Part shown: piece after piece, positions 38,523 through 58,050 of the stretch
How positions within the stretch are numbered: position 1 is the first letter of the stretch
How the letters are laid out: every line of letters starts with the position of its first letter
From: Bacteroidales bacterium
Lineage (GTDB): Bacteria; Bacteroidota; Bacteroidia; Bacteroidales; BM520
Assembly: GCA_016285515.1 (NCBI GenBank)
Contig: JAEEQW010000008.1
Coordinates: 1 to 64,000, forward strand
Length of the DNA: 64,000 nt
Direction: 5' to 3'
Notes under the pieces: generated by a model
What the model saw: only the letters and a program-made list of their open reading frames with translations
Database searches by the model: none
What the model was told of the DNA's origin: nothing
Position numbers and translations under genes: made by a program

Positions 38523-40097
38523 ATGAGCAAAGAAATAGTCATAGGAAATTTGCGTCTTGGTGGCAGTAACCCTGTGAGGATCCAGTCAATGACTAATACT
38601 CCGACTGATGATGTGAAGGCTACTGTCAATCAGACTATTGAGTTATGCGACAATGGTTGCGAACTTGTCAGGATAACCACACGCAATATCCGTGATGTCA
38701 ATTGCCTTTCTGAAATCAAGGAAGAACTTGTCAGAAGAAACTGTTTGGTGCCTGTCATCGCTGATGTGCACTTCAATCCCAAGGTGGCAGAGCTATCTGC
38801 ATCTGTTGTCGAAAAGGTAAGGATAAATCCTGGAAACTATATTGACAAGAAGGCAGGAAAAACAACATTTACTGACGAAGATACTGTCAATGCAATCAAT
38901 GCGGCTAAAGGCAACCTCATACCTTTAATCAATATCTGCAAGAAACACGACACTGCAATCCGTATCGGAAGCAACCAGGGCTCATTGTCCGATAGAATTG
39001 TTTTCAAATATGGAGATACAGCAAAAGGTATGGTGGAGGCTGTCATGGAATTTCTCCAGATATTCGAAGAGCTTGATTTTCATAACATTGTAATTTCATT
39101 GAAATCAAGCAATCCTATGGTTATGATTGAAGCCAACCGTCTCATGGTTGAACGCATGAATCAGATTGGCGTTGACTATCCGTTACATCTTGGAGTAACC
39201 GAAGCCGGCAACGGCCAGGAGGCGCGAATCAAATCCGCAATAGGCATTGGCACTCTTCTCTGCGAAGGTATTGGCGATACTATCAGAGTGTCACTGTCGG
39301 AGCCGCCTGTGGAGGAAATCCAACCTGCCAAGGAGATTGCCCGATATAAGAATAATATTCATGTAAAGAAATTTGATGTGGGCAAACGTCCGATTTTGCA
39401 GGATTCACAACATCCTTTGTCTGTCATTGTTTCGGATAATATCGCAAGGTTAAGTAATGACGGATATAAACTTGCCGATTTCATAATCAAGGATGTTGGC
39501 AGTCATAATGATTTCATACTCTTCAATGACAATGATTTCCCTAATGCCAAAGTTATGGAAGTTACAGGAGCGTCTTTGAAGGATATTTGCGAACACCTTG
39601 ACTGCTATTTCTCTGAAGAGCCTTACAGACCGTTGGTTGTCAAAAAATATTATAACAGGGACATTCCTTATGAGCGTCTGATGATAGAGGCTGCAATAGA
39701 AATTGGCTTTATCATCACTAATTATCCTGTCTCGGGAATATGGACCAATGTCAGGGAATCCATATTGGCTGACATATTGCAGGCCACACGTAACAGACTT
39801 TCAAAACCTGAGTTTATTAGTTGCCCTACTTGTGGCCGTACTGAATATGATCTGATTTCAGTAGCTGATGAAGTTAAACGTAAAACCTCTCACCTTAAGG
39901 ACATTACGATTGGCGTGATGGGATGTGTTGTCAATGGCCCCGGTGAAATGCGTGGCGCGGACTATGGTGTGGTGGGTTTTGGTAAAAACAAAGTCATTCT
40001 TTACAGAGGCTGTGAGGCTGTTGGCCAGCCATTTCCTGCTTCTGAAGCTGCCGACCGTCTTCTTGAACTTATAAATAATGATAAACATATTAAATAA
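38523..40097 (+). CDS. ispG: 4-hydroxy-3-methylbut-2-enyl diphosphate synthase
   Basis: IspG performs the penultimate step of the MEP isoprenoid pathway with a [4Fe-4S] cluster. The 524-residue protein has a TIM barrel (residues about 1-260; VRIQSMTNTPTDDVKAT, RINPGNYIDKKAG, GVTEAGNGQEARIKSAIGIG), a middle insert (about 270-410) and the C-terminal cluster domain with CPTCGRTEYDL and GVMGCVVNGPGE, which supply the three Cys and one Glu ligand. E. coli IspG is about 370 residues and the insert-bearing Bacteroidota/plant type about 600 or more, so this insert is short. Confidence 0.95.
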   Translation: MSKEIVIGNLRLGGSNPVRIQSMTNTPTDDVKATVNQTIELCDNGCELVRITTRNIRDVNCLSEIKEELVRRNCLVPVIADVHFNPKVAELSASVVEKVRINPGNYIDKKAGKTTFTDEDTVNAINAAKGNLIPLINICKKHDTAIRIGSNQGSLSDRIVFKYGDTAKGMVEAVMEFLQIFEELDFHNIVISLKSSNPMVMIEANRLMVERMNQIGVDYPLHLGVTEAGNGQEARIKSAIGIGTLLCEGIGDTIRVSLSEPPVEEIQPAKEIARYKNNIHVKKFDVGKRPILQDSQHPLSVIVSDNIARLSNDGYKLADFIIKDVGSHNDFILFNDNDFPNAKVMEVTGASLKDICEHLDCYFSEEPYRPLVVKKYYNRDIPYERLMIEAAIEIGFIITNYPVSGIWTNVRESILADILQATRNRLSKPEFISCPTCGRTEYDLISVADEVKRKTSHLKDITIGVMGCVVNGPGEMRGADYGVVGFGKNKVILYRGCEAVGQPFPASEAADRLLELINNDKHIK

Positions 40098-40104
40098 TCA
40101 TATT

Positions 40105-42999
40105 ATGAAAAAATTATTACTCATGGTATTGCTGTCATTATGTTGGATATTCCTTCCGGCAGCGTATATTGTTGACTATCCAGTGACTCTTCATCAGCCT
40201 GACGGCACTGAAATTCACTGCTTTGCATCAGGTGATGAATATTACAACTGGTATCATGATGCAAACCATTTCACCATTATTGCCAACAGCGAAGGCTATT
40301 ATTGCTACGCTGTGCTGTCGGGTGACAAGGTTGTTGCATCACAGTATGTGGTCGGTTCCGTTGACCCTGCGTCAGTCGGCATCAAACCGGGAGTTAGTAT
40401 CTCCGCCGAGGCCAAGAACGCCATCAGAGATTCCTTCGTGAAAAACACCCCTCCGAAAACTCCGATTCCGGGGTATGATGTGAGCAAGGGCAAACTTGAC
40501 AATTTCGGAGAGATGAATAATCTTGTGGTATATATCTATTTCAAGGATCAGACCCCATTCCCTGAAGACACTGCTTATTATTGGGGTATGTTCAATGGTA
40601 GCGGAGATGTGTCGAATCAGACTTTGCAGAATTATTTTGAGACCGTGTCTTATAATCAGTTCTCAATCCAGTCATATTTTTTCCCTCTAACGGAAACAAC
40701 TGAGATTCTTGCTTATCAGGACAGTCATATCAGGGAATATTATATGCCTTATGACCCTGTGACAGCTCCGTCCGGATATCAAGAAAACGAAAGGGCTGAC
40801 AGGGAATTCCAGCTGCTGCACGATGCAATAGAATTTATTGCCGATGAGGTTCCGGAAAACATTAACCTTGACCATAACCACGATGGCTATGTTGACAATG
40901 TGGTGTTTATTGTCAGAGGCGATGTAACCGCATGGTCAACACTTCTGTGGCCTCATCGCTGGTCATTGTATTCGCATTATGCCTATATTCACGGCCTGAG
41001 AGTTTATGACTTCAATTTCCAGATTGAAACCCACCTCAACAGCTCTGAAGCCAGTGTGCTCTGTCATGAAATGTTCCATTCGCTTGGCGCTCCGGACCTG
41101 TACAGATATTCCGACAATACCATCGCTCCGATAGGTAATTGGGATGTCATGTCGGGCAATCTGCATCCGGCACAATCAATGTCTGCCTATATGAAATACA
41201 AATATGGAGGCTGGATTGATGAAATTCCTGAAATTACCGAAGGTGGTGTGTATTATCTTAATACACCTTATTCTTCTGAAAACTGTGTTTATAAGATTGC
41301 TTCACCGAATTCTTCCGCCGAATATTTTGTGTTGGAATATAGAAACAAAACTCATCCGTTTGAAACTAAAATGCCGGGAGAGGGATTGCTTATTTTCAGA
41401 GCATATCCAAGCATAAACGGCAATGCAGGCGGACCACCGGATGAACTCTACGTGTTTCGCTATGGTGGAACCAACACTTTGACCAACGGCAATATCAATA
41501 ATGCCAATTTCAATTCTGCTGTCGGCAGAACGGAATTCGATGACAATACTAATCCGCCATGTTTCCTGAAAGACAATACCCCAGGTGGCATATTCATCAA
41601 AAATGTCGGCTCTGTTAGTACCCAGATATCATTTGAAGTCTGGTTCGATGTAGTACCGACTGCTGAATTTGAAGCTTCATCAACTGAGGTAACAGTTGGC
41701 TGTCCTGTTGATTTTAGCGCCACTTCATATAATTTCGTTGACAATTGGTTTTGGGATTTCGAGGATGCTACTCCGAGTTCTTCAGAAGAACAGAATCCAA
41801 CCGGAATTGTCTTTAATTCCCCCGGATATAAGACTGTAACGCTGACAGTTATGAACGAACATGGTGACGGTACCATTACAAAGGAAGGATATATCTATGT
41901 CAATGACACAGACGGACCTTCTGTAAGTTTCAGTTCTGACAGACAAACTGTGTGCCTCGATGGTCAGGCTATTCATTTTTATGGTGATGGCGATTTGTGC
42001 CCTACTTCGTGGCAATGGTCTTTCTCACCAAATACTGTCACTTTCATTGAAGGTACTGATGCAAATTCGCAGAATCCCGTGGTTTCATTCGATGTCGCTG
42101 GCGACTATGATGTGACTCTCTCAGTATCAAATGCCAACAAAACCAATACATTGACAGTTGAGAACTATGTTTCAATGTCCGGAATCAGTATCCATGATTA
42201 TCATGAGGATTTTGAAAACATCAACAATATTCAGGAAGCAGGCTGGTTGGTTGAGAATCCTGACAATAAGCTTACATGGGAGCTTGCTGAAACTCTTGAA
42301 AACAACGGTGTCAATCATGCCCCATACGTCAATTTCTTCAAATATAACGGTGTCGATAAAAAAGATTATCTGATTTCTCCATATTTCAAACTTGATGGAA
42401 GATATCAGCTTCATTTCAGACATGCATACAGAATGAAGAATAGTGCTGTTTCTGATACTTTAAATGTGAGCATATCAACTGATTGCGGGGACACATGGCA
42501 ACTTTTGGAATCTTTCTATGAGGATGGTTCAAACAACTTTGTAACTGGACCGGCAGTCAATTATGATTTCATTCCGCAGGATGTTACCGATTGGTGCGGC
42601 AACATGTCCGACTATGCAGATTGTCTGACTGTGGATTTGAGCGATTATGCTGGTTATGAAAACGTTATGATTAGATTTGAAGCCGTGAAATTGGTCGGAA
42701 ATAATCTGTTTATCGACGATATTTATTTCGAATCTCTTGACGGAATCAACGATTATGCAGATATGGAATCGTTTACTCTGTTCCCTAACCCGAATAATGG
42801 TATTTTCACTCTCCGTTGTGACGGAAATTATAGTAATGTTAAGGTTGATGTGTTCAATATTACCGGAACAAGAGTACTGTCGAAGAATTTTATTGGCTCC
42901 AACTCTGTAATTGACCTTTCAGACTGTCCCGACGGATTGTATATTGTCAATATAACCACAAACAATTACTCTCAAAAGCTGAAGTTAATCAAACAATAG
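40105..42999 (+). CDS. Secreted M6-family metalloprotease with PKD domains and T9SS signal
   Basis: The start at 40105 gives a signal peptide (MKKLLLMVLLSLCWIFLPAA) and 964 residues; the longer frame begins inside ispG. A propeptide-like N-terminus (about 25-130) is followed by the M6 domain with zinc motif HEMFHSLGAPD (His321, Glu322, His325). Two PKD domains (about 515-690), a jelly-roll/MAM-like domain (about 690-890; FENINNIQEAGW, NLFIDDIYFE) and a type A T9SS sorting domain (FTLFPNPNNGIFTL ... CPDGLYIVNI) follow. It is probably an extracellular or surface protease. It lies one base before the next gene, suggesting an operon with the two TPR proteins. Confidence 0.93.
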   Translation: MKKLLLMVLLSLCWIFLPAAYIVDYPVTLHQPDGTEIHCFASGDEYYNWYHDANHFTIIANSEGYYCYAVLSGDKVVASQYVVGSVDPASVGIKPGVSISAEAKNAIRDSFVKNTPPKTPIPGYDVSKGKLDNFGEMNNLVVYIYFKDQTPFPEDTAYYWGMFNGSGDVSNQTLQNYFETVSYNQFSIQSYFFPLTETTEILAYQDSHIREYYMPYDPVTAPSGYQENERADREFQLLHDAIEFIADEVPENINLDHNHDGYVDNVVFIVRGDVTAWSTLLWPHRWSLYSHYAYIHGLRVYDFNFQIETHLNSSEASVLCHEMFHSLGAPDLYRYSDNTIAPIGNWDVMSGNLHPAQSMSAYMKYKYGGWIDEIPEITEGGVYYLNTPYSSENCVYKIASPNSSAEYFVLEYRNKTHPFETKMPGEGLLIFRAYPSINGNAGGPPDELYVFRYGGTNTLTNGNINNANFNSAVGRTEFDDNTNPPCFLKDNTPGGIFIKNVGSVSTQISFEVWFDVVPTAEFEASSTEVTVGCPVDFSATSYNFVDNWFWDFEDATPSSSEEQNPTGIVFNSPGYKTVTLTVMNEHGDGTITKEGYIYVNDTDGPSVSFSSDRQTVCLDGQAIHFYGDGDLCPTSWQWSFSPNTVTFIEGTDANSQNPVVSFDVAGDYDVTLSVSNANKTNTLTVENYVSMSGISIHDYHEDFENINNIQEAGWLVENPDNKLTWELAETLENNGVNHAPYVNFFKYNGVDKKDYLISPYFKLDGRYQLHFRHAYRMKNSAVSDTLNVSISTDCGDTWQLLESFYEDGSNNFVTGPAVNYDFIPQDVTDWCGNMSDYADCLTVDLSDYAGYENVMIRFEAVKLVGNNLFIDDIYFESLDGINDYADMESFTLFPNPNNGIFTLRCDGNYSNVKVDVFNITGTRVLSKNFIGSNSVIDLSDCPDGLYIVNITTNNYSQKLKLIKQ

Positions 43000-47196: not shown

Positions 47197-47280
47197 TACT
47201 GGGTTCTTGGCATTGTCTGCTACAAATAAATCTTTTGTTGACGAATCTGTGTGCAGTGTGAATATTAATTGATTAGAAAT

Positions 47281-48810
47281 ATGGAAAAATTTTTACTTTC
47301 TTTGAATGAAGTAGAGAATATCTTATACGAAAATCATAAGCTCAGTGTCTCAGATGGGGTGTTGCAAAAGGTGGATGAATGCTACAACTTCTTAAATGAT
47401 TTTTGTAGGGGGAAGGTGATTTACGGCATCAATACTGGCTTTGGCCCTATGGCTCAGTGGCGTGTTGATGATGAGTATCTTACAAATCTGCAATATAATA
47501 TAATCCGCAGCCATTCCACCGGAGTGGGTGAACCTCTGTCCGATATTTATGTCAAATCGGCAATGATTGCCCGTCTTGGCACCTTTTTGCAGGCGCATTC
47601 AGGTGTGCATGTCGATGTCATCAAACTTCTCATCGAATTTATTAATCGTGATATTATTCCTTTCATTCCACGGCATGGCAGTGTTGGCGCCAGCGGTGAC
47701 CTCGTACAACTAGCACATCTGGCTCTCACGCTTATCGGTGAAGGGAAAGTCCATTATAAAGGCGAATGGCGTAATGCGTCAGACGTATTGGATGAAAACC
47801 ATCTTAAACCGTTTGAAATCCATATACGCGAAGGCCTCTCTATAACTAACGGAACCTCTGTGATGACAGGCATAGGAATTGTCAACCAGTTCAATGCTGA
47901 ATATCTGCTCGATTGGGCTACACTTGCAGCAGTCTGGGTTAATGAAATAGCTTCCTCATTCGATGACCTGATGTCAAAGGAACTCAATGAATGTCGTCAC
48001 CATGAGGGACAGCAGATAATTGCCCGCCGTATGCGTAATCTTGCTGAAGGCAGTAAATGTCTGCAACAGCGTGAACACGAACTTTATGATGGAAACAATA
48101 CTGACAAGATTTTCGAACATAAAGTTCAGGCATATTATTCTTTGCGCTGTGTACCTCAAGTCTTAGGCCCTGTGTATGAGACGCTTGCAAATAGCAGACG
48201 CATCCTCGAAGAAGAAATTAATTCTGCATGCGATAATCCTATCGTTGATCCGGCTTCCAATAATGTTTATCATGGCGGCAATTTCCATGGTGACTATGTC
48301 TCTCTTGAAGAAGACAAAGTGAAGATTGCAATGACAAGGGTGGCCATGACTGCTGAGCGTCAGCTCAACTATCTGTTCCATGACCGCATTAACGGTATCC
48401 TCCCTCCATTCCTGAATATGGGTACTCTCGGACTCAATTATGGTATGCAGGCGTGCCAGTTTACGGCAACATCCACTACAGCCGAATGCCAGACCCTTTC
48501 AATGCCCAACTATGTCCATAGTATCCCTAATAACAACGATAATCAAGATATTGTGAGCATGGGTACAAATTCTGCCCTGCTGTGCTCAAATGTCATCGAA
48601 AATGTTTATCAGGTGATGGCTGTTCACTATATTGCCCTCGCACAGGCAGTTGACTGCCTGAATATCCAGGACAAATTGTCTTTTTCTTCCCGACGTGTCT
48701 ATGACGATATCAGAAAACTGGTGGCTGCAAGAATTGAAGATCAGCCTTTTTATGAGGATATTGCTAAAGTTGAAACTTACCTTAAGAATAATCCTCTTAG
48801 ACTGAAATAA
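47281..48810 (+). CDS. MIO-dependent aromatic amino acid ammonia-lyase (HAL/TAL family)
   Basis: The enzyme would deaminate an aromatic amino acid to an unsaturated acid. The start at 47281 gives 509 residues; a TTG 12 bases upstream is less likely. The MIO prosthetic group should form from Ala137-Ser138-Gly139 in GSVGASGDLVQ. Catalytic Tyr48 (VIYGINTGFG) and Asn190 (SITNGTS) are present. The substrate pair in RSHSTGVGEP is Ser77-His78, as in histidine lyases (classical TAL has His-Leu, PAL has Phe-Leu), but Asn421-Gln422-Asp423 (NQDIVSMG) looks like TAL/PAL, not the HAL form QE. No hut genes are nearby. Its place at the head of a KS/ACP locus argues for biosynthesis. Confidence 0.9.
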   Translation: MEKFLLSLNEVENILYENHKLSVSDGVLQKVDECYNFLNDFCRGKVIYGINTGFGPMAQWRVDDEYLTNLQYNIIRSHSTGVGEPLSDIYVKSAMIARLGTFLQAHSGVHVDVIKLLIEFINRDIIPFIPRHGSVGASGDLVQLAHLALTLIGEGKVHYKGEWRNASDVLDENHLKPFEIHIREGLSITNGTSVMTGIGIVNQFNAEYLLDWATLAAVWVNEIASSFDDLMSKELNECRHHEGQQIIARRMRNLAEGSKCLQQREHELYDGNNTDKIFEHKVQAYYSLRCVPQVLGPVYETLANSRRILEEEINSACDNPIVDPASNNVYHGGNFHGDYVSLEEDKVKIAMTRVAMTAERQLNYLFHDRINGILPPFLNMGTLGLNYGMQACQFTATSTTAECQTLSMPNYVHSIPNNNDNQDIVSMGTNSALLCSNVIENVYQVMAVHYIALAQAVDCLNIQDKLSFSSRRVYDDIRKLVAARIEDQPFYEDIAKVETYLKNNPLRLK

Positions 48811-49704
48811 ATGCCTGAAATCAAACATAACCTTTGGAAAGGAAAAACTGATGGAACCCCATGGATGCACAAGACGTTGATTTGGCTTATGCGTTGGATA
48901 AACCTGAATGTTTTCTACGGCATTATGGCTTTAGTTGTTCCTTTTTACATGATTTTCAATAGGCAAGGTTATCGTTCAACATACAACTTCTTTCGTAACA
49001 GAATAGGATATCCGCCTCTGAAAAGCTTTTTCAGCGTCTATGCCAACCATTTCAGGTTCGGACAGGTAATTCTTGATAGATTTGCTGTCTTTGCAGGCAA
49101 ATCTTTTCATTTTGATATAGAAAATTTTAACCTTTATGAAAGTCTTTCCAATTCAGACAAAGGGTTTATCATGCTCGGCTCCCATGTCGGAAATTATGAG
49201 ATGGCGGGCTATTCATTGGTTGCAGAAAAAACCATCAATGCACTGCATTTCGATGGTGAAGCAAAGTCGATTATGGAAAACAGAAGTCATCAGCTTGGCG
49301 GGAATAATATAAAATTGATTCCAGTGCTGGATGACATGTCACATATCTTCTTGTTAAACAACGCTTTAAGCGATGGGCAGATAGTCAGCATCCCAAACGA
49401 CAGAATGTTGGGTTCGTCAAAACATGTTGATTGTGTGTTCTTTGGTGAAAAAGCAAAATTTCCAACCGGTGCATATATTATGTCAATCAATCGCGAAGTT
49501 CCGATGATTGCGGTATTTGTAATGAAACTTTCGGGTAGAAAATATAAAATCCTGGTTCGTAAAATTGAGGCTCAGCAGGAACAGATTATTTCCAAACAGG
49601 AAAAGATTTACATGCTCGCCTCATGTTTTGCATCGAATCTTGAGGATGTGGTCAGGGAATATCCTACCCAGTGGTTTAACTATTTTGATTTTTGGAAACA
49701 ATAA
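48811..49704 (+). CDS. LpxL/HtrB-like lipid acyltransferase
   Basis: The 297-residue protein has the lipid A late acyltransferase fold: one membrane-associated N-terminal segment (about residues 35-50), the HxxxxE motif as His125-Glu130 in GSHVGNYEM, and VSIPNDRMLGSSKHV, a diverged form of the second motif. It begins directly at the lyase stop codon, so it is almost certainly co-translated with it. Related acyltransferases occur in aryl polyene and flexirubin loci, where they are thought to esterify the chain to a lipid anchor. Its acceptor here is unknown. Confidence 0.88.
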   Translation: MPEIKHNLWKGKTDGTPWMHKTLIWLMRWINLNVFYGIMALVVPFYMIFNRQGYRSTYNFFRNRIGYPPLKSFFSVYANHFRFGQVILDRFAVFAGKSFHFDIENFNLYESLSNSDKGFIMLGSHVGNYEMAGYSLVAEKTINALHFDGEAKSIMENRSHQLGGNNIKLIPVLDDMSHIFLLNNALSDGQIVSIPNDRMLGSSKHVDCVFFGEKAKFPTGAYIMSINREVPMIAVFVMKLSGRKYKILVRKIEAQQEQIISKQEKIYMLASCFASNLEDVVREYPTQWFNYFDFWKQ

Positions 49705-49716
49705 AATCTGTAGGTC

Positions 49717-50871
49717 ATGAAAGTGATATTCAAAATAGCTGATAACATTGTCTCACCGCTTGGTTTTACTACTGCTGAGAACTTCAATGCAGTGAGGACG
49801 GGCAGGTCTGCCATCAGACGTTATGAAGATAAATGGGAAATCCCTGACCCTTTCATGGCTTCACTTATTGACAGAGATGCTCTTGACCATGAATGCGGTT
49901 CGTTACCATTGAAGCAGCATTATACCTGCTTCGAAAAGATGGTTCTGTTGTCTGTTTCCAAAGCTTTGGAAAACAGTGGGGTGCAGCCTGATTCCGATAG
50001 AGTTCTGTTTGTGGTTTCCACCACAAAAGGAAATGTTGATTTACTCTATGAAAACAAATACAACCTTCCGTCCGACAGAATCCTTTGTGGAGTAACTGCA
50101 AGAGTTATCTGTGATTATTTTCATAATCCAAATCCGCCAATTGTTGTGTCGAATGCTTGTATATCAGGGGTGTGTGCCCAAATTGCTGCTATGAGGAACC
50201 TCTTTGGCGGCAAATATGATTACGTGATTGTCACTGGTGCTGACTGCCAGTCAAGATTTATAGTTACAGGTTTCCAGTCGCTGAAGGCTTTGTCGCCTGA
50301 TTTGTGCCGCCCTTTCGACAAAGACAGAAAGGGTTTGAACCTCGGTGATGCCGCTGCGACCATTATCTATTCCGTAAAGGATGAATGTGACACGGAGCCG
50401 GATGACTGGATAGCCGTTGACGGCTCCATCAGAAACGACGCAAACCACATTTCCGGACCGTCACGTACAGGTGAAGGCAGTTACAGAACTCTTGTCAATG
50501 TGCTTCATGATACTAATCCTGACGATATTGCCTTCGTTAATGTTCATGGCACTGCAACGGTTTACAATGATGAAATGGAATCAATAGCCTTGTATCGTGC
50601 CGGATTGCAGGCAGTTCCGGTAAACGGACTTAAGGGCTATTATGGTCATACAATGGGTGCCGCAGGTGTTATTGAAACGATACTTTCAATGTGTGCCGTT
50701 GACAACAATGTCATCCTTGCCACTCGCGGCTATGAAACTTGCGGAGTGTCATATCCTTTGTCATTGTCAAATGAAATTCGTCATACCGACAAACGGTCCT
50801 TTATAAAACTTCTTTCCGGTTTTGGAGGCTGTAATGCGGCAATTCTTTTTAAGAAAGGAGGTGCGTTATGA
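49717..50871 (+). CDS. Beta-ketoacyl synthase (KS), Cys-His-His intact
   Basis: The 384-residue protein has the thiolase fold of KAS enzymes. The triad is Cys148 in VSNACISG, His277 in VNVHGTATVYND and His311 in KGYYGHTMGAAG, with GFGGCNA near the C-terminus. It should be able to condense an acyl chain with a malonyl-ACP extender. It is more diverged than FabF at 51741. It ends with a four-base overlap (ATGA) with the next gene, a KS-like fragment. Confidence 0.9.
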   Translation: MKVIFKIADNIVSPLGFTTAENFNAVRTGRSAIRRYEDKWEIPDPFMASLIDRDALDHECGSLPLKQHYTCFEKMVLLSVSKALENSGVQPDSDRVLFVVSTTKGNVDLLYENKYNLPSDRILCGVTARVICDYFHNPNPPIVVSNACISGVCAQIAAMRNLFGGKYDYVIVTGADCQSRFIVTGFQSLKALSPDLCRPFDKDRKGLNLGDAAATIIYSVKDECDTEPDDWIAVDGSIRNDANHISGPSRTGEGSYRTLVNVLHDTNPDDIAFVNVHGTATVYNDEMESIALYRAGLQAVPVNGLKGYYGHTMGAAGVIETILSMCAVDNNVILATRGYETCGVSYPLSLSNEIRHTDKRSFIKLLSGFGGCNAAILFKKGGAL

Positions 50872-51464
50872 TAAAGTCATGGATTAAAATTACTGACAGG
50901 TCCGTGTCGCTCAATGGGCAAATAATGGATTTCCCTTCATACGGAAATGCTTTGCTTACCGAAATATACAGAAGCAAAGTTAAGGATTATCCCAAGTTCT
51001 TCAAAATGGATGCCTTGTGCAAGTTGGGATTTCTCGGTTCTGAACTTGTTATTCAGGATGAAAACACCAACCGCTTTGTCCCTCGTGAAGACAGAGCTGT
51101 AATCTTGTTTAACAGAAGTGGATCGTTGAACGCTGATGTTAACTTTCAAGCAACTCTGCAACCTGATGATTTTTTCCCGAGTCCTGCTCTTTTTGTCTAT
51201 ACTCTTCCGAATATTATCACTGGTGAGATAGCAATCCGAAATAAGTATTTGGGCGAAACCTCTTTCTATGTTTTGGAGAAAAAAGACCCTGAAACCATTG
51301 CCTCTCAAATAGTTGAATCTTTTCAGGATAACATTACAAAATCGGTAATTGGTGGTTGGGTTGACTGTGTTGATGAAAACAACTTCGAGGCAGTCATGTT
51401 TCTGTGTTATAAGGATGAAAATGACAAATTACATGAGGAAATCAAAAATATTTTATCTAAATGA
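50868..51464 (+). CDS. Truncated ketosynthase-like protein without active-site Cys
   Basis: The 198-residue protein looks like only the N-terminal half of a KS fold: FKMDALCKLGFLGSELVIQD, AVILFNRSGSLNADVNF, SPALFVYTLPNIITGEIAIR and then a region where the catalytic Cys loop should be (ETSFYVLEKK) that has no Cys. The C-terminal His-bearing half is absent and no stop-codon scar or frameshift continues it downstream. It may be a structural partner of a KS (compare chain-length factors), or a shape-only subunit. The fold assignment is from pattern only. Confidence 0.65.
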   Translation: MIKSWIKITDRSVSLNGQIMDFPSYGNALLTEIYRSKVKDYPKFFKMDALCKLGFLGSELVIQDENTNRFVPREDRAVILFNRSGSLNADVNFQATLQPDDFFPSPALFVYTLPNIITGEIAIRNKYLGETSFYVLEKKDPETIASQIVESFQDNITKSVIGGWVDCVDENNFEAVMFLCYKDENDKLHEEIKNILSK

Positions 51465-51479
51465 TTAAAAACTAAAAAT

Positions 51480-51737
51480 ATGGATGAACTGATATTAGAA
51501 TTGAAAAATGAGATAATAGAAACTCTCAATCTTGAGGATATGCAACCGGAAGACATCGACACTGATGCTCCTCTTTTCGGTGAAGGCCTCGGTCTGGATT
51601 CGATTGATGCTTTGGAACTTATAGTTCTGATGGAAAAGAATTACGGTATTAAACTTAGAGATGCGTCCAAAGGCAAGGAGATTTTCAAATCAGTAAGGGT
51701 AATGGCTGATTATATCGAAAAGAACAGAACAAAATAA
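51480..51737 (+). CDS. Acyl carrier protein
   Basis: The 85-residue protein has the ACP helical pattern with the phosphopantetheine site Ser41 in GLGLDSIDALELIVLME. It is distinct in setting from a primary FabD-FabG-ACP-FabF cluster, so it is probably dedicated to this locus. Start ATG follows the KS-like fragment by 15 bases and the stop lies three bases before the next KS start. Confidence 0.95.
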   Translation: MDELILELKNEIIETLNLEDMQPEDIDTDAPLFGEGLGLDSIDALELIVLMEKNYGIKLRDASKGKEIFKSVRVMADYIEKNRTK

Positions 51738-51740
51738 CTG

Positions 51741-52952
51741 ATGGGGAAGCCGATTTTCATAACGGGAGCTGGCATAGTTTCAGCAATAGGACTCAACAAG
51801 CAGGAGGTGTTGTCTTCTCTGCTTGCTGGGAAATCCGGTATTGCTGATGTACGATACTTGGACACCGAGCATCGGGAATTTCCGGTCGGAGAAGTCAAGC
51901 TTACCAATGAACAGATGATTCAAATGCTTGACATTAAGCCTGATGCCGTTACTACAAGAACTTCCCTTATGGGTATGCTTGCAATGAAGGAGGCTTTGGA
52001 TGATGCCAATCTCACACGTGAGGATATTCATCGTGCAGCATTCGTTTCCGGTACTACTGTCGGCGGAATGGATAAAACCGAACATTATTATCTTGATTTT
52101 ATCAACAATGACAAAAAAAACAAATACATCGTTGTTCATGATTGCGGAACGTGTTCGGAAATGATTTGTGACTATTTCGGCGATTTCGCTTTCGTCACTT
52201 CAGTCTCTACAGCTTGTTCTTCGGCTGCAAATGCCATTATCAGAGGTGCTGCTATGATACGTGCCGGTTTGTTCGATATTGCAGTTGTCGGTGGTAGCGA
52301 GTGTCTTACGAAATTCCATCTCAACGGTTTCAACTCCTTGAAAATTCTTGACACTGAACTGTGCCGTCCTTTCGATGAAACCCGTTCAGGCTTGAATCTT
52401 GGTGAAGGTGCCGCATATCTTGTGCTTGAGTCTTATGATTCAATGAGAAGAAGAAATGTAAAGCCTTTGTCGGTACTTGCAGGGTATGGTAACGTTTGTG
52501 ATGCCTATCACCAGACCGCATCGTCTCCGGAAGGTGAAGGTCCGTACCTGGCAATGAAGGAAGCCTTGGAAGATGCCGGATTGAATGTTTCGGATATCGA
52601 CTACATCAACGCACACGGAACCGCAACCCCTAATAACGATCTTACGGAAAGTATGGCGTTGAAACGACTTTTCTCAGACAGAATCCCTCCTGTTTCCTCA
52701 ACTAAAGCCTTCACGGGACATACTACAAGCGCCACCGGCTCCATTGAAGCTGTAATCTGTATTCTTGCTATACGTAATCAATTTCTTCCTGTTAACCTGA
52801 ACTGGAAAAATCAAATGGAAAATGGCATAACTCCGGTGACCGATTTGCATCCTGACAAACCTGTGACCAATGTGTTGTGTAATTCGTTCGGATTCGGTGG
52901 CAATGATTCATCACTTCTTTTATGCTCTTCTGAAATTTATGACAAGGAATAG
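51741..52952 (+). CDS. FabF-like ketosynthase
   Basis: The 403-residue enzyme starts MGKPIFITGAGIVSAIGLN, a standard KAS II N-terminus. The triad is Cys159 in VSTACSSAAN, His292 in INAHGTATPNND and His327 in KAFTGHTTSATG, with NSFGFGGNDS at the end. It overlaps the next gene by 14 bases. The close coupling with a KS-like protein that has lost both His residues suggests a KS/CLF heterodimer, as in type II polyketide and aryl polyene systems (inference). Confidence 0.93.
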   Translation: MGKPIFITGAGIVSAIGLNKQEVLSSLLAGKSGIADVRYLDTEHREFPVGEVKLTNEQMIQMLDIKPDAVTTRTSLMGMLAMKEALDDANLTREDIHRAAFVSGTTVGGMDKTEHYYLDFINNDKKNKYIVVHDCGTCSEMICDYFGDFAFVTSVSTACSSAANAIIRGAAMIRAGLFDIAVVGGSECLTKFHLNGFNSLKILDTELCRPFDETRSGLNLGEGAAYLVLESYDSMRRRNVKPLSVLAGYGNVCDAYHQTASSPEGEGPYLAMKEALEDAGLNVSDIDYINAHGTATPNNDLTESMALKRLFSDRIPPVSSTKAFTGHTTSATGSIEAVICILAIRNQFLPVNLNWKNQMENGITPVTDLHPDKPVTNVLCNSFGFGGNDSSLLLCSSEIYDKE

Positions 52953-53970
52953 TTTTTACATAAAGTCAACTGCTCAGATTTCGATTCAACAGCCGTTGTG
53001 TGAGGACTGGATGGAAAATCCTATATGGTATGATTCCAATTATGTCCGCTCTTTGGAGCCCGACTACAAACAATATATTCCGCCTATGGAAGCTCGCAGA
53101 ATGACCAGAATCATGAAACGTTCCCTGACCACTTCCAATGTTGCTATTAAAAAGTCGGGACTTGTGCTTCCTGACGCCATCATTACTGGCACAGGATGGG
53201 GATGTATGGATAATACCGAACAGTTCTTGGAGATTTTGTGTAATGAAGGGGAACAACTGCTGAAACCCACTTTGTTTATACAGTCAACGCATAATACCAT
53301 CAGTTCACATATAGCCATCAATACCTGTAACAACGGTTACAACATCACTTATTCGCACAGATGCGTCTCTTTTGATATGGCATTGTTCGATGCGTATTTG
53401 CAGTATAAGTTCGGTAAGATTGATTCAGCTCTTGTAGGAAGCCATGACGAAGTGACACCGACATCTTTCGTTTTGCTTAAAAAAATGGGACTCGTTGGCT
53501 GTGATGACGAAATCTGCGGTGAGGCTTCAGTGTCAACTGTTTTGTCTTCCACTCCGTCTGACGCGCATAGTGCAGTTGCGGCAATAAGAATTATTTATAA
53601 ACCCTCTGTGTCTGAAATACATTCTACAGTAAACCAATTGCTTGCGGATGCTGAAATGTGTACGGAGGATATTTCTGCTGTAATGGTCGGAATAAGTGGC
53701 AACAAAACTACTGACAACCTTTACTATGATATTGTTGACAACTGTTTCAGAGATAAAACAATACTTCACTATAAACATGTTTTCGGTGAATGCTTTTCAG
53801 CATCCGCTTTCGGCTTCTACGCTGCTGACTGCTGTTTGAAACATGGATATATCCCTGACTTTCTGTATGTTGATAAATCACAGGGAATGATTGGAACTCC
53901 CAAAACCATTCTCCTAATTAACCATTCTGACGGCAAAACCTTTTCATTTATTCTTCTGAGATCAGTTTAA
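52939..53970 (+). CDS. Chain-length-factor-like ketosynthase homologue
   Basis: I chose ATG 52939 (MTRNSFYIKS), 343 residues; the longer frame starts far inside the KS gene. The fold follows KS: SVMVGISGN replaces the His1 motif, and FGECFSASAFG replaces GHTxGAAG, so both His are lost, while Cys142 (YSHRCVSF) is kept at the catalytic Cys position. Classic CLFs instead change the Cys to Gln, so this is an unusual combination. THNTISSHIAINT resembles the Ketoacyl-synt_2 family. It probably partners the FabF-like KS. Confidence 0.75.
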   Translation: MTRNSFYIKSTAQISIQQPLCEDWMENPIWYDSNYVRSLEPDYKQYIPPMEARRMTRIMKRSLTTSNVAIKKSGLVLPDAIITGTGWGCMDNTEQFLEILCNEGEQLLKPTLFIQSTHNTISSHIAINTCNNGYNITYSHRCVSFDMALFDAYLQYKFGKIDSALVGSHDEVTPTSFVLLKKMGLVGCDDEICGEASVSTVLSSTPSDAHSAVAAIRIIYKPSVSEIHSTVNQLLADAEMCTEDISAVMVGISGNKTTDNLYYDIVDNCFRDKTILHYKHVFGECFSASAFGFYAADCCLKHGYIPDFLYVDKSQGMIGTPKTILLINHSDGKTFSFILLRSV

Positions 53971-53979
53971 TCAAATAAA

Positions 53980-55623
53980 ATGAAACAGCCTGATAATCTT
54001 TGTGTTGTGATGCCAACATACAATAACGGCAACACCATAATCAACATTTTGGAGCGGGTGCTCCAATTTTGCGAAAATGTAATTGTGGTTGATGATGGCT
54101 GCACCGATGACACATATAAATTGTTGCAGCAGGCTGCTCTTCCGGTAACCATATTACGGCATGAAAGAAATAAAGGCAAAGGCGCGGCGTTAAAGACTGG
54201 TTTTAAAAAGGCTATTGATTTGGGATTCCTTTATGCAATAACAATTGATTCCGATGGCCAGCATTATCCGGAGGATATCCCATTGCTCGTTGAAGCTCAT
54301 CAGCAGAATAAAGATGCTATCATTGTTGGAAGTAGAAACCTTAGGAGTGACAATATGCCGTCAAGCAGTTCCTTTGCAAACAGGTTTTCAAATTTCTGGT
54401 TCCGCTTGCAAACAGCTCAGAATGTGCCGGATACGCAGACAGGATTTCGTCTTTATCCACTGAAGAAGATAAAAGGCCTAAATATACTCACCTCACGATA
54501 TGAGGCCGAATTGGAACTACTTGTCTTATCTGCCTGGAATAATGTTAAAATAATATCTGTTCCTATAAAAGTATATTATCCGCCTGAAAATGAACGCATT
54601 ACTCATTATAGGCCATTTATGGATTTTTTCAGGATATCTCTCGTGAACATTGTATTCTGTCTTGGTGCACTCTTCTATGCTTTGCCTCTTTCCATAATGC
54701 GTCATCTGCATATCGTTTCTATGTTTGTCTTGCTGTTGTTGCTGAGCAATAGCCTTATATCACAGGAAGTGATTAAAATATGGAAAGGGACTCAGATACA
54801 TGCCGATTATGTGAAGATGTCTGCTTATCAGCTGGAAAATGACGATAATGTTTCTGATGATTTGAAAGGGACTGCTGTTATAGTCTGTCCGGGAGGAAGT
54901 TATTTTTGGCATGATAAGAACAATGAAAACATTAAGGTTGCCAATTGGCTGAACGACAATGGAATAACGGCATTTGTTCTGAATTATACAACTGCCGGTT
55001 TTATTGCTTATGCAACGTATTACCGTTATCTGTTTCCTGTCCGCCAGTATCCTGATATGATTATGGACATACAGCGTGCGATTCAGCTCGTTAGAGAAAA
55101 CGCTGATTATTACCATATAAACCCCAATAAGATAGGAGTGATGGGCTTTTCGGCAGGCGGTCATCTCGTTATGCTGTCAGGTGTATTCTCAGAGCACGAC
55201 TTCTTGTCTGATATGGGCATCGGGGTGGATGTTTCGCTCGTCCCTGATTTTATTGCTTCTGTCTATCCTGTCGTCACTATGTCTAAGGAATGCACCCATC
55301 AGCGTTCAAGACGTGGCCTCCTTGGGGAAAGGAATAAATCTGACATCACAATGAGAGATTCGTTGTCGCTTGAGGAACATATTCCTCGGAATTGTCCTCC
55401 GGTGTTCCTTGTAAATTGTACCGATGACCCTGTTGTGGACTATCATAACTCCATTCTTCTTGACTCGGCGTTGATAGCACAAAACATTGAACATAGATAT
55501 ATCAGATATGATACTGGTGGCCATGGCTTCGGAGCAAGCGATACAAGCGGTTCCGAGGAATGTCATGCCTGGAAAGGTGAATTTGTCAAATGGCTGAAAA
55601 GTGTAATTAAAAATAATTCATGA
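53980..55623 (+). CDS. Fusion of GT2 glycosyltransferase and serine esterase
   Basis: Residues 1-210 are a DPM1-like family 2 glycosyltransferase (VVMPTYNNGN, VVDDGCTDDTY, DSD at 90-92 in ITIDSDGQHYPEDI, DTQTGFRLYP). Two hydrophobic stretches follow (about 217-238 and 244-260). Residues about 265-547 are an alpha/beta hydrolase with nucleophile Ser391 in GFSAGGH, an acidic residue in CTDDPVVD and His515 in TGGHGFG, and an oxyanion-type PGGSY. Met240 (ATG 54697) begins MRHLHIVSMFVLLLLLSNSL then ISQEV, which reads like a complete signal peptide, so the esterase may be a recently fused secreted protein. No frameshift is seen. Start follows the CLF-like gene by nine bases. Confidence 0.85.
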   Translation: MKQPDNLCVVMPTYNNGNTIINILERVLQFCENVIVVDDGCTDDTYKLLQQAALPVTILRHERNKGKGAALKTGFKKAIDLGFLYAITIDSDGQHYPEDIPLLVEAHQQNKDAIIVGSRNLRSDNMPSSSSFANRFSNFWFRLQTAQNVPDTQTGFRLYPLKKIKGLNILTSRYEAELELLVLSAWNNVKIISVPIKVYYPPENERITHYRPFMDFFRISLVNIVFCLGALFYALPLSIMRHLHIVSMFVLLLLLSNSLISQEVIKIWKGTQIHADYVKMSAYQLENDDNVSDDLKGTAVIVCPGGSYFWHDKNNENIKVANWLNDNGITAFVLNYTTAGFIAYATYYRYLFPVRQYPDMIMDIQRAIQLVRENADYYHINPNKIGVMGFSAGGHLVMLSGVFSEHDFLSDMGIGVDVSLVPDFIASVYPVVTMSKECTHQRSRRGLLGERNKSDITMRDSLSLEEHIPRNCPPVFLVNCTDDPVVDYHNSILLDSALIAQNIEHRYIRYDTGGHGFGASDTSGSEECHAWKGEFVKWLKSVIKNNS

Positions 55624-56927
55624 TGAAAAATAATATAACGGACATTGAATACAAATCTCCAGAGGAGATAAAATCATTTCAGGAGAAGCTCCTTAATAAG
55701 GCTCTTGTCTATCTTAATGAGCATTCCCGCTATTATCAGCGGCTTTTTGCCAAATATGAAATCGACATCAATAAAATAGTTTCTTTGGAAGATCTCATAA
55801 GAATCCCTTTTACTGAAAAGAAAGATTTGCAGCTTTTCAATGATGATTTCCTCTGCTGTCCCAAGGATAAGATTATAGATTATATAACCACATCAGGAAC
55901 ATTGGGGGATCCTGTCACTTTCGGCTGTACGGAGAAGGATTTGCAGCGTCTTGCCTACAACGAAAAGAAATCTTTTGAATGTGCTGGTATCCGCCCAGGC
56001 AATATAGTCCAACTGATGACTACTCTTGATAAAAGATTTATGGCTGGAATGGCTTATTTCTTGGGCCTTCGTGAGCTTGGTGCCGGAATAGTGAGAGTTG
56101 GAAACGGAATACCTGAACTTCAGTGGGATACTATAAAACGTATTAAACCTGACACTATCATGTGCGTCCCTTCCTTTATTCTCAGACTTATCCAGTATGC
56201 AGAGGAACACAATATTGATTATAAAAACAGCAGTATCAGACGCATTATAGGCATTGGTGAGGGACTTAGGGAACAGGATTTTTCTCTTAATCTGCTCGGC
56301 CAGCGAATCAGGGAAAAATGGGATGTGCAACTTTTTGCAACTTATTCATCTACCGAAATGTCTGCCACTTTCTCGGAATGTGAATATGGACTTGGAGGTC
56401 ATTGCCATCCGGAACTCATAATTGTGGAAATCATTGGTGATGATGATTTGCCTGTCCCTGACGGTGAGGTCGGCGAAGTTGTAGTAACAACTCTTGGTGT
56501 TGAGGCTATGCCTTTACTGAGATTCCGTACCGGTGACATGGCCGCAAAGCATGTCGAACAGTGCAAGTGTGGCAGAAATTCCTACAGGCTCTCTCCTTTG
56601 GTGGGTCGTAAAAACAATATGATTAAACTCAAAGGAACAACTCTTTATCCGCCTGCAATCAATGATGTCCTTGATGATACAAACTATGTCGAAAATTATG
56701 TTATCATCGTTGATAACAGTGATGCCGGTACTGATGATGTGAAAGTTTATGTCGGTCTTAAATATATGCCTGATTTTGACCCTGTTAAAGACCTCAAAGA
56801 TCATTTCAGGTCAAGAATCAGAGTCGCTCCCACTGTCGAAATCCATACAGTTGAAGAGATTTATTCAATTAACTATCCTGCAAAAAGCAGAAAACCTATC
56901 AAGTTTATAGATAATAGAAAAAAATGA
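55620..56927 (+). CDS. PaaK-like AMP-forming acid-CoA/ACP ligase
   Basis: The 435-residue adenylate-forming enzyme has the PaaK-type P-loop ITTSGTLGDPVTF, YSSTEMSATFSE and LRFRTGDMA, then a small C-terminal domain (RDHFRSRIRVAP-like end KSRKPIKFID). Phenylacetate-CoA ligase relatives activate aromatic acids; in aryl polyene loci a ligase loads a hydroxybenzoate-type starter onto ACP. It overlaps the fusion gene by four bases (ATGA); ATG 55623 is an alternative start. Substrate is not determined, but the lyase upstream offers an aromatic acid. Confidence 0.88.
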   Translation: MMKNNITDIEYKSPEEIKSFQEKLLNKALVYLNEHSRYYQRLFAKYEIDINKIVSLEDLIRIPFTEKKDLQLFNDDFLCCPKDKIIDYITTSGTLGDPVTFGCTEKDLQRLAYNEKKSFECAGIRPGNIVQLMTTLDKRFMAGMAYFLGLRELGAGIVRVGNGIPELQWDTIKRIKPDTIMCVPSFILRLIQYAEEHNIDYKNSSIRRIIGIGEGLREQDFSLNLLGQRIREKWDVQLFATYSSTEMSATFSECEYGLGGHCHPELIIVEIIGDDDLPVPDGEVGEVVVTTLGVEAMPLLRFRTGDMAAKHVEQCKCGRNSYRLSPLVGRKNNMIKLKGTTLYPPAINDVLDDTNYVENYVIIVDNSDAGTDDVKVYVGLKYMPDFDPVKDLKDHFRSRIRVAPTVEIHTVEEIYSINYPAKSRKPIKFIDNRKK

Positions 56928-56928
56928 A

Positions 56929-58050
56929 ATGATAGACCCTCGATTTGATGACATAAGACCTTATTACGACAGCGAAATTCCTGCTTCCATGCAGCGAATT
57001 GCCACATGTCCTTATTTCGATAAGATTGCATCGTTCGTTTTTCCTGATGAAGATACGGAAACAGTCAGAAAAAAAATTATTAATATCAGTACTGTAAACG
57101 AATTTCAGAAAAAGGTCATGAGCCCGATGAATGAACAGGTTATCAAACGTACTATGACAGACCTCACTTATGTAGGTATTGGGAATATTTCCAAGGACAA
57201 AAGTTATATGTATGTTTCCAACCATCGTGACATCGTACTGGATGCCAGTCTGTTGCAGCAGATATTGTTTTATAACGGCTTTGAAACAACTCAAATTACC
57301 CTTGGGGCAAATTTAATGGAAAACCCGGTTGTCACCGATGTTTTCAAATCTAATAAGATGTTTGTGATTGAACGTGGTGGCAGCTTGAAAGAGTTCTATT
57401 TCAGCTCTTATCATGTTTCCGATTATATGAGATATATGATAACCCAACGTCATGAATCCGTTTGGATTGCACAACGCAACGGCCGTACCAAGGACGGTAA
57501 GGATGTTACTGATAGGGGAGTTATCAAGATGTTTGGCATGAGCAGTTCTGAAAATAAGGTTGATGCTCTTGCCGAGCTTAACATCCTGCCAGTCTCTGTC
57601 TCATACGAATGGGAGCCATGCGATGTGCTCAAGGCTGTTGAACTTTACCATCGCCGACGCGGAAAATATGTGAAAAAACATGGTGAAGATGTCAACAGCA
57701 TTCTAACCGGTATTCTGCAACCCAAAGGCAGGGTTAATTTTCATTTCTGTGATGTTGTTAGCTATGATGACCTTATGAGATACAATGACTGCAACAAAAA
57801 TGAATTTGAACATAAGGTCGCTGAACTCATTACTAATCGCATTTGTCGGAATTATATGCTGTTCCCGAATAATTATATTGCTCACGACCTTCAACATAAC
57901 AATCAGCAGTTTGCCGATCGTTATACTGAAGAACAGAAACAAACATTTGTTAAGCATCTGGATGTCCTTAAGGAATATACTGAATATAATCAGGATGAAC
58001 TTCTGGAGATATTCCTCGGCATATATGCATCACCAGTTGATAATTTATAA
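56929..58050 (+). CDS. Glycerol-3-phosphate/1-acylglycerol acyltransferase-like protein
   Basis: The 373-residue protein has a PlsC/GPAT-like core with YVSNHRDIVLDASLL (family motif as His-x5-Asp, a variant frequent in Bacteroidota), MFVIERGGSLKEF and WIAQRNGRTKDGKD in place of the usual EGTR. It starts one base after the ligase stop codon, so it completes the locus. With the LpxL-like protein upstream, the locus has two distinct acyltransferases, which would fit double acylation of the product, but that is inference. Intergenic gap to ettA is 21 bases. Confidence 0.85.
   Translation: MIDPRFDDIRPYYDSEIPASMQRIATCPYFDKIASFVFPDEDTETVRKKIINISTVNEFQKKVMSPMNEQVIKRTMTDLTYVGIGNISKDKSYMYVSNHRDIVLDASLLQQILFYNGFETTQITLGANLMENPVVTDVFKSNKMFVIERGGSLKEFYFSSYHVSDYMRYMITQRHESVWIAQRNGRTKDGKDVTDRGVIKMFGMSSSENKVDALAELNILPVSVSYEWEPCDVLKAVELYHRRRGKYVKKHGEDVNSILTGILQPKGRVNFHFCDVVSYDDLMRYNDCNKNEFEHKVAELITNRICRNYMLFPNNYIAHDLQHNNQQFADRYTEEQKQTFVKHLDVLKEYTEYNQDELLEIFLGIYASPVDNL

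Follow-up and report, generated by a model that had tools for sequence, protein, structure and literature searches.

A half-size ketosynthase-fold protein as a proposed partner of a ketosynthase in an aryl-polyene/flexirubin-type cluster of a Bacteroidales bacterium

Genes of the cluster and the half-size reading frame

The window, i.e. the whole stretch of 64,000 nucleotides that was analysed, carries the following run of genes, of which the half-size gene is the subject of this study.

47269-48810, + strand: aromatic amino acid ammonia-lyase of the HAL/TAL type (PF00221, E = 1.3e-157)
48811-49704, + strand: lipid A-type acyltransferase (PF03279)
49717-50871, + strand: KSa, ketosynthase that retains Cys-His-His and is proposed as the catalytic partner of the half-size protein (PF00109/PF02801)
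50868-51464, + strand: half-size ketosynthase-fold protein, 198 aa long, proposed to serve KSa as a mini chain-length factor
51480-51737, + strand: acyl carrier protein (PF00550; NCBIfam PRK09184, 96 bits with a cut-off of 70)
51741-52952, + strand: KSb, second ketosynthase, motifs TACSS, HGTAT and GHTTSATG (best NCBIfam family PRK09185, below cut-off)
52870-53970, + strand: KSc, degenerate ketosynthase, ApeC-like chain-length factor by profile and proposed partner of KSb (PF13723)
53980-55623, + strand: glycosyltransferase family 2 fused with an esterase-like domain (PF00535, PF20434)
55620-56927, + strand: AMP-dependent acyl ligase (PF00501, PF14535)
56929-58050, + strand: phospholipid/glycerol acyltransferase (PF01553)

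The best NCBIfam family of KSa is also PRK09185, again below the cut-off, and we take PRK09184 and PRK09185 to be the models for the acyl carrier protein (ACP) and the ketosynthase (KS) of APE-type clusters. As judged from its homologues, KSc probably starts at the Met at about position 52939. The lipid A-type acyltransferase has a conserved position just upstream of KSa in related loci, the acyl ligase probably activates the aryl starter, and the ammonia-lyase, which parallels FlxA of the flexirubin cluster (PMC3992019), probably supplies a cinnamate-type starter. The esterase part of the glycosyltransferase fusion is of the BD-FAE type; most relatives have a reading frame of glycosyltransferase size only, and in some it is about 470-502 aa long.

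On its contig C6 the genome has a second operon (L094:4257-10924), which encodes a ketoreductase, a KS, an ACP, a FabA/ApeI-like dehydratase and a FAD oxidoreductase, and in many relatives a KS related to the one of this operon is found just upstream of the main cluster. Taken together, the two loci look like an aryl-polyene/flexirubin-type pathway that is divided between them in this genome and parallels flxA-flxY of Chitinophaga pinensis (PMC3992019). Elsewhere in the window, positions 40078-42999 encode a secreted-looking protein of 973 aa. Reading by eye suggests that it has a metalloprotease-like motif (HEMFHSLG), a PKD-like region and, at its C-terminus, a tail similar to the sorting signals of type IX secretion.

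The ATG of the half-size gene and the stop codon of KSa share the four bases ATGA, and the stop of the half-size gene is separated from the ACP start at 51480 by a gap of 15 bp, with no remnant of a C-terminal KS half after it. A first-pass annotation of the sequence had described a protein lying between an intact KS and the ACP with a four-base overlap and with no second half following, and this description is borne out. When counted from a conserved Gly (G129), the catalytic Cys position falls at about K138. This column is occupied by E, S, K, D, H, R or N and never by Cys in 64 homologues, which agrees with the loss of the active-site Cys noted earlier, and a Cys in the adjacent column 139 is found in 7/64 homologues and is not conserved. 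Both catalytic His residues are absent, as the C-terminal half is missing. Given that the protein has neither a conserved Cys nor the C-terminal half that bears both His, it is unable to act as a ketosynthase by itself.

C148, H277 and H311 are invariant in the alignment of KSa. In the KSc family both catalytic His are lost and the Cys position is not conserved (mostly G, T, A, E or N in the relatives), with the copy in the window having a Cys at the old position. The four KS-fold proteins of three kinds that were originally counted are thus recovered: KSa and KSb with Cys-His-His, the half-size protein, and KSc without either His.

The half-size family and its fold

A scan of public genomes for the half-size protein gave 400 related stretches, and the best 80 of the 400, nearly all of them titled Bacteroidales or relatives, were kept. 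The protein is conserved in other loci: the half-size domain is present in about 90 homologous loci, and the family profile matched 27/296 sampled Bacteroidota genomes, 25 of them strongly and two with weak hits to ordinary KSs. Stand-alone homologues are mostly 183-232 aa long, i.e. they are half-size themselves and not full-length KSs from which the protein would have decayed. L120 and L121, two weak matches from another part of the phylum, were rejected as full-length ancestors, being ordinary FabF-type KSs with a Cys.

In a comparison with a congener that is 95% identical, dN was 0.023 and dS 0.234 for the half-size gene (dN/dS about 0.1), and 16 positions are invariant among 64 sequences of the family, including K43, K46, D48, D90 and E120. 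The widespread half-size homologues, the low dN/dS and the invariant positions indicate that the half-size protein is maintained by selection and is not a decayed KS. Conservation is concentrated in a central segment at about residues 82-134, which contains the motif N-x-x-x-S-L-x-A-D ... F-P-S-P-x-x-F-V-Y-T-L-P-N-I.

As a single sequence the half-size protein had no match of use in Pfam, NCBIfam or the PDB (phmmer), and neither PF13723 nor PF00109 was matched over the curated cut-off. The family scores of its homologues were marginal (best of 64 against PF00109, E = 0.026; best fabF score, E = 4.3e-6). The family profile gave a weak match to Iga12 (6kxd chain B) at positions 47-142 (hmmsearch, E = 0.0012) and matched FabF-type KSs with E = 1.4e-5 and 4.9e-5 in searches of single genomes. 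The top PDB profile match of the family, 8g8i, consisted of several weak repeated stretches, none of which passed alone, and was set aside. Comparisons of the half-size protein with KSc and with KSa by hhalign gave no match.

The AlphaFold2 model of the protein, obtained with 64 homologues in the alignment (pLDDT 88.6, pTM 0.85), was found by Foldseek to have a KS fold with the chain-length factor (CLF) Iga12 as top hit (6kxe_B, E = 3.8e-6). Chain B of 6kxe, 6kxd and 6kxf was followed by ApeC (6qsp_B), and the Acinetobacter ApeC chains 7f28_C and 7f28_A, which with 198-203 residues are of the same size as the half-size protein, ranked tenth and twelfth. With VIA-align the model was superposed on 6qsp_B over 174 residues (Z 14.0, rmsd 3.4), residues 1-198 aligning with 6-218 of ApeC, i.e. 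over the whole length. A KS/thiolase fold, as opposed to an unrelated one, is well supported by the predictions, with AlphaFold2, Foldseek and VIA-align in agreement. The initial view that only the N-terminal half of a KS is present therefore needs a correction: the half-size KS fold stands, whereas the last 40 residues add two strands and a helix in a manner similar to ApeC, where some second-domain strands are also kept. Given that Z was about 14 against CLFs and FabFs alike and that FabFs also had similar Foldseek scores, a CLF and a KS origin are not separable by the fold alone.

Pairing with KSa and alternative explanations

Nearly every locus that extends far enough has KSa directly upstream of the half-size gene, and in nine loci (L004, L073, L078, L079, L080, L083, L086, L090 and L117) the two form one reading frame. 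A 398-aa reading frame at L087 was also examined as a fusion and was rejected as a start-codon overcall in another frame. Fusions of the half-size protein with a KS always involve KSa; KSb is instead fused with KSc, and this fusion is found in the loci of many relatives.

The L078 fusion was folded with unpaired homologues of KSa and of the half-size protein, which fell cleanly into place in the alignment, and the model (pLDDT 94.9, pTM 0.95) describes a fused relative and not the two chains of the window. Its top Foldseek match was the KS-CLF didomain of PfaC (6riw, TM 0.79, query-normalised), and lone KS chains gave TM 0.56-0.60 with the KS part alone covered. Since a TM of 0.79 requires both domains to be superposed in the same relative placement, the model puts the half-size domain in the CLF position. 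The two-domain superposition comes from Foldseek, VIA-align having been confined largely to the KS part, and a domain of KS fold may be put at the well-known KS dimer interface by AlphaFold2 whatever its origin. The block pLDDT of residues 81-120 of the half-size protein was 59-77 in the isolated model and 74-97 beside KSa in the fusion model.

Judged from models, sequence comparisons and analogy, the half-size protein is most probably a mini-CLF, i.e. a non-catalytic heterodimer partner of KSa that shapes its pocket. As a single thiolase-fold domain without catalytic residues it would form a pseudo-twofold heterodimer with the adjacent KSa. In established KS-CLF structures the central segment of the partner seals the acyl pocket of the KS at its far end, and residues of about 82-134 may close the pocket of KSa in this way and influence which aryl-polyene intermediates KSa accepts. 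Structures of such pairs place the partner subunit on the other side of the dimer interface, next to the acyl tunnel of the KS (see also PMC8358021). The earlier suggestion was of a lid or dimer partner and not of an enzyme; of these a dimer partner is favoured by the KSa fusions, by the CLF placement in the L078 model and by the precedent of ApeC (PMC8358021). We infer that the two proteins of the window form a heterodimer of separate polypeptides in the cell, with shaping of the pocket, control of chain length and a division of labour with the proposed KSb/KSc pair.

The half-size protein could also bind KSa in a structural or ACP-docking role, in which it stabilises the KS and recruits the downstream ACP, leaving chain length unaffected. 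This would fit the place of the half-size gene, which in nearly every locus comes after KSa and before the ACP gene, and the in-frame fusions of the half-size protein with the ACP (L014-L019, L021, L026, L028 and L033). However, conservation peaks in the central segment that is better ordered beside KSa, which argues for a role at the interface, even if such a role might be purely structural, and we regard a docking subunit as unlikely. In the ACP fusions, the MDELI start of the ACP itself is recognisable within the fused reading frame.

It is improbable that KSb, or some other KS in the genome, is the partner of the mini-CLF candidate in place of KSa. KSb is nearby and a further KS is encoded in the contig C6 operon, but the KS fusions are always with KSa, and the partial correlation of distance matrices over 74 loci and the window was 0.46 for KSa and 0.09 for KSb, a difference with a bootstrap interval that just touches zero. 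In the same loci the partial correlations were 0.36 between the half-size protein and KSc, 0.33 between KSc and KSb and -0.07 between KSc and KSa. Gene adjacency accounts for part of the fusion signal as well as of the mirror-tree signal, and given that neighbouring genes share history, the correlations lend modest support to the pairing with KSa.

If the half-size protein were an orthologue of ApeC, it would be the CLF of a standard ApeO-ApeC pair. Its size and fold are those of ApeC (204 aa in A. baumannii), but a profile made from eleven ApeC sequences (E. coli CFT073 and plasmid-collection records) picks KSc, with an hhalign probability of 98.4% (E = 4.9e-15), compared with 1.3% and no significant sequence relation for the half-size protein, and orthology is accordingly quite improbable. 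In the reverse direction the KSc profile matched the ApeC chains 7f28_A (E = 2.9e-8) and 6qsp_B (E = 7.6e-7). Within the window's genome the ApeC profile matched KSc only (52975-53466) and not the half-size gene. The ApeC and half-size profiles were both run on a set of relatives: six others had an ApeC-profile match and 6/6 also had the half-size protein; G004, a fragmented genome, was alone in having the half-size protein with the ApeC-profile match absent. By sequence KSc, and not the half-size protein, is the counterpart of ApeC, and because the profile comparison with ApeC fails, the half-size protein is likened to ApeC in structure only. PF13723 (Ketoacyl-synt_2), the KS N-terminal-like domain, is likewise matched by KSc and not by the half-size protein. 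The best PDB sequence match of the KSc profile was 9s5h/9s5i, an entry that contains two different 3-oxoacyl-ACP synthases and also scored high for KSa.

A new active site on a half KS fold, which would make the protein an enzyme in its own right, could be suspected from the 16 invariant residues, K43, K46, D48, D90 and E120 among them. We find this very improbable, since the K-M-D and P-N segments coincide with structural motifs that ordinary KSs and CLFs have, and no nucleophile is conserved in the vicinity of the former active site. Decay or splitting of a ketosynthase, or an error of assembly, which the missing half of the KS fold might bring to mind, can be dismissed for practical purposes in view of the about 90 loci with a half-size domain, the dN/dS of about 0.1, the 15 bp to the ACP gene and the lack of a C-terminal remnant.

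With the half-size protein taken as the mini-CLF of KSa, KSa/half and KSb/KSc would be two KS-CLF pairs of one APE/flexirubin-type pathway, and the two pairs may divide aryl-polyene elongation between themselves. The KSc relatives include full-length, intermediate and about 200-aa members (around 200 residues in L073, L076, L078-L080, L082, L083, L085, L086 and L091). A wider reading, which we put forward tentatively and with less than even confidence, is that in the APE/flexirubin clusters of Bacteroidota two separate KS-CLF heterodimers divide the growing aryl polyene between them, one of KSa and a mini-CLF from a family not described before, the other of KSb and a CLF similar to ApeC, and that half-size CLFs arose at least twice, the KSc lineage having full, intermediate and half-size members.

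Comparison with known systems

Half-size CLFs (ApeC) and single-chain KS-CLF proteins (PfaC) are already known. In the open literature, with few subscription journals included, and in the family libraries, the CLF sequence family of the half-size protein and its use beside an ApeC-like CLF appear undescribed, as do, within the same scope, the fusion of family members to a KS or to an ACP and the stepwise shortening of KSc. No description of a CLF for Bacteroidota clusters was found in this open literature (few subscription journals), where the pairing of "flexirubin" with "chain length factor" was found for E. coli only. A widespread family that lacks a Pfam or NCBIfam model and occurs in a common type of bacterial pigment cluster is now named, and with the four KS-fold genes assigned to two proposed KS-CLF pairs there are specific partners to use in reconstitution. 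The natural single-chain KS-CLF fusions should be useful for structural studies and engineering, and the series of KSc proteins from full to half size provides a natural test of how small a part of the KS fold is enough for a chain-length factor.

The flexirubin cluster flxA-flxY of Chitinophaga pinensis contains an ammonia-lyase, an acyl ligase, several KSs, an acyltransferase and a glycosyltransferase, and the main text of its description has five putative KSs and names no CLF (PMC3992019). Compared on the basis of this published description, it is like the cluster of the window in gene content and phylum.

Among KS-fold chains Iga12 of the highly reducing type II PKS for ishigamide (chain B of 6KXD, 6KXE and 6KXF) is the best structural and profile match of the half-size protein. 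With about 360 aa, Iga12 has a full-length KS fold, which is missing in the 198-aa half-size protein, and in the solved structure it is a separate chain that is unfused to its KS, whereas the half-size protein is fused to KSa in some relatives. The latter arrangement resembles PfaC of the PUFA synthase (6RIW), in which KS and CLF are on one chain and have the same relative placement as in our model, although the CLF domain of PfaC is full-size and part of a multidomain synthase.

In the APE clusters of Proteobacteria the half-size CLF is ApeC, which consists of one thiolase fold and has ApeO as its partner (PMC8358021, PMC8253772). Like the half-size protein, it has one thiolase-fold domain of about 200-240 aa without catalytic residues (6QSP chain B; 7F28 chains A and C), and both are found in an APE-type cluster with a KS, an ACP, an acyltransferase and an acyl ligase. 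Their motifs differ, with SPT-x-F-x-x-S-V-H-N in ApeC and PSP-x-x-FVYTLPN in the half-size family, and so does the gene order, given that apeC of E. coli is far from apeO (PMC8253772) and the half-size gene overlaps the gene of its proposed KS partner.
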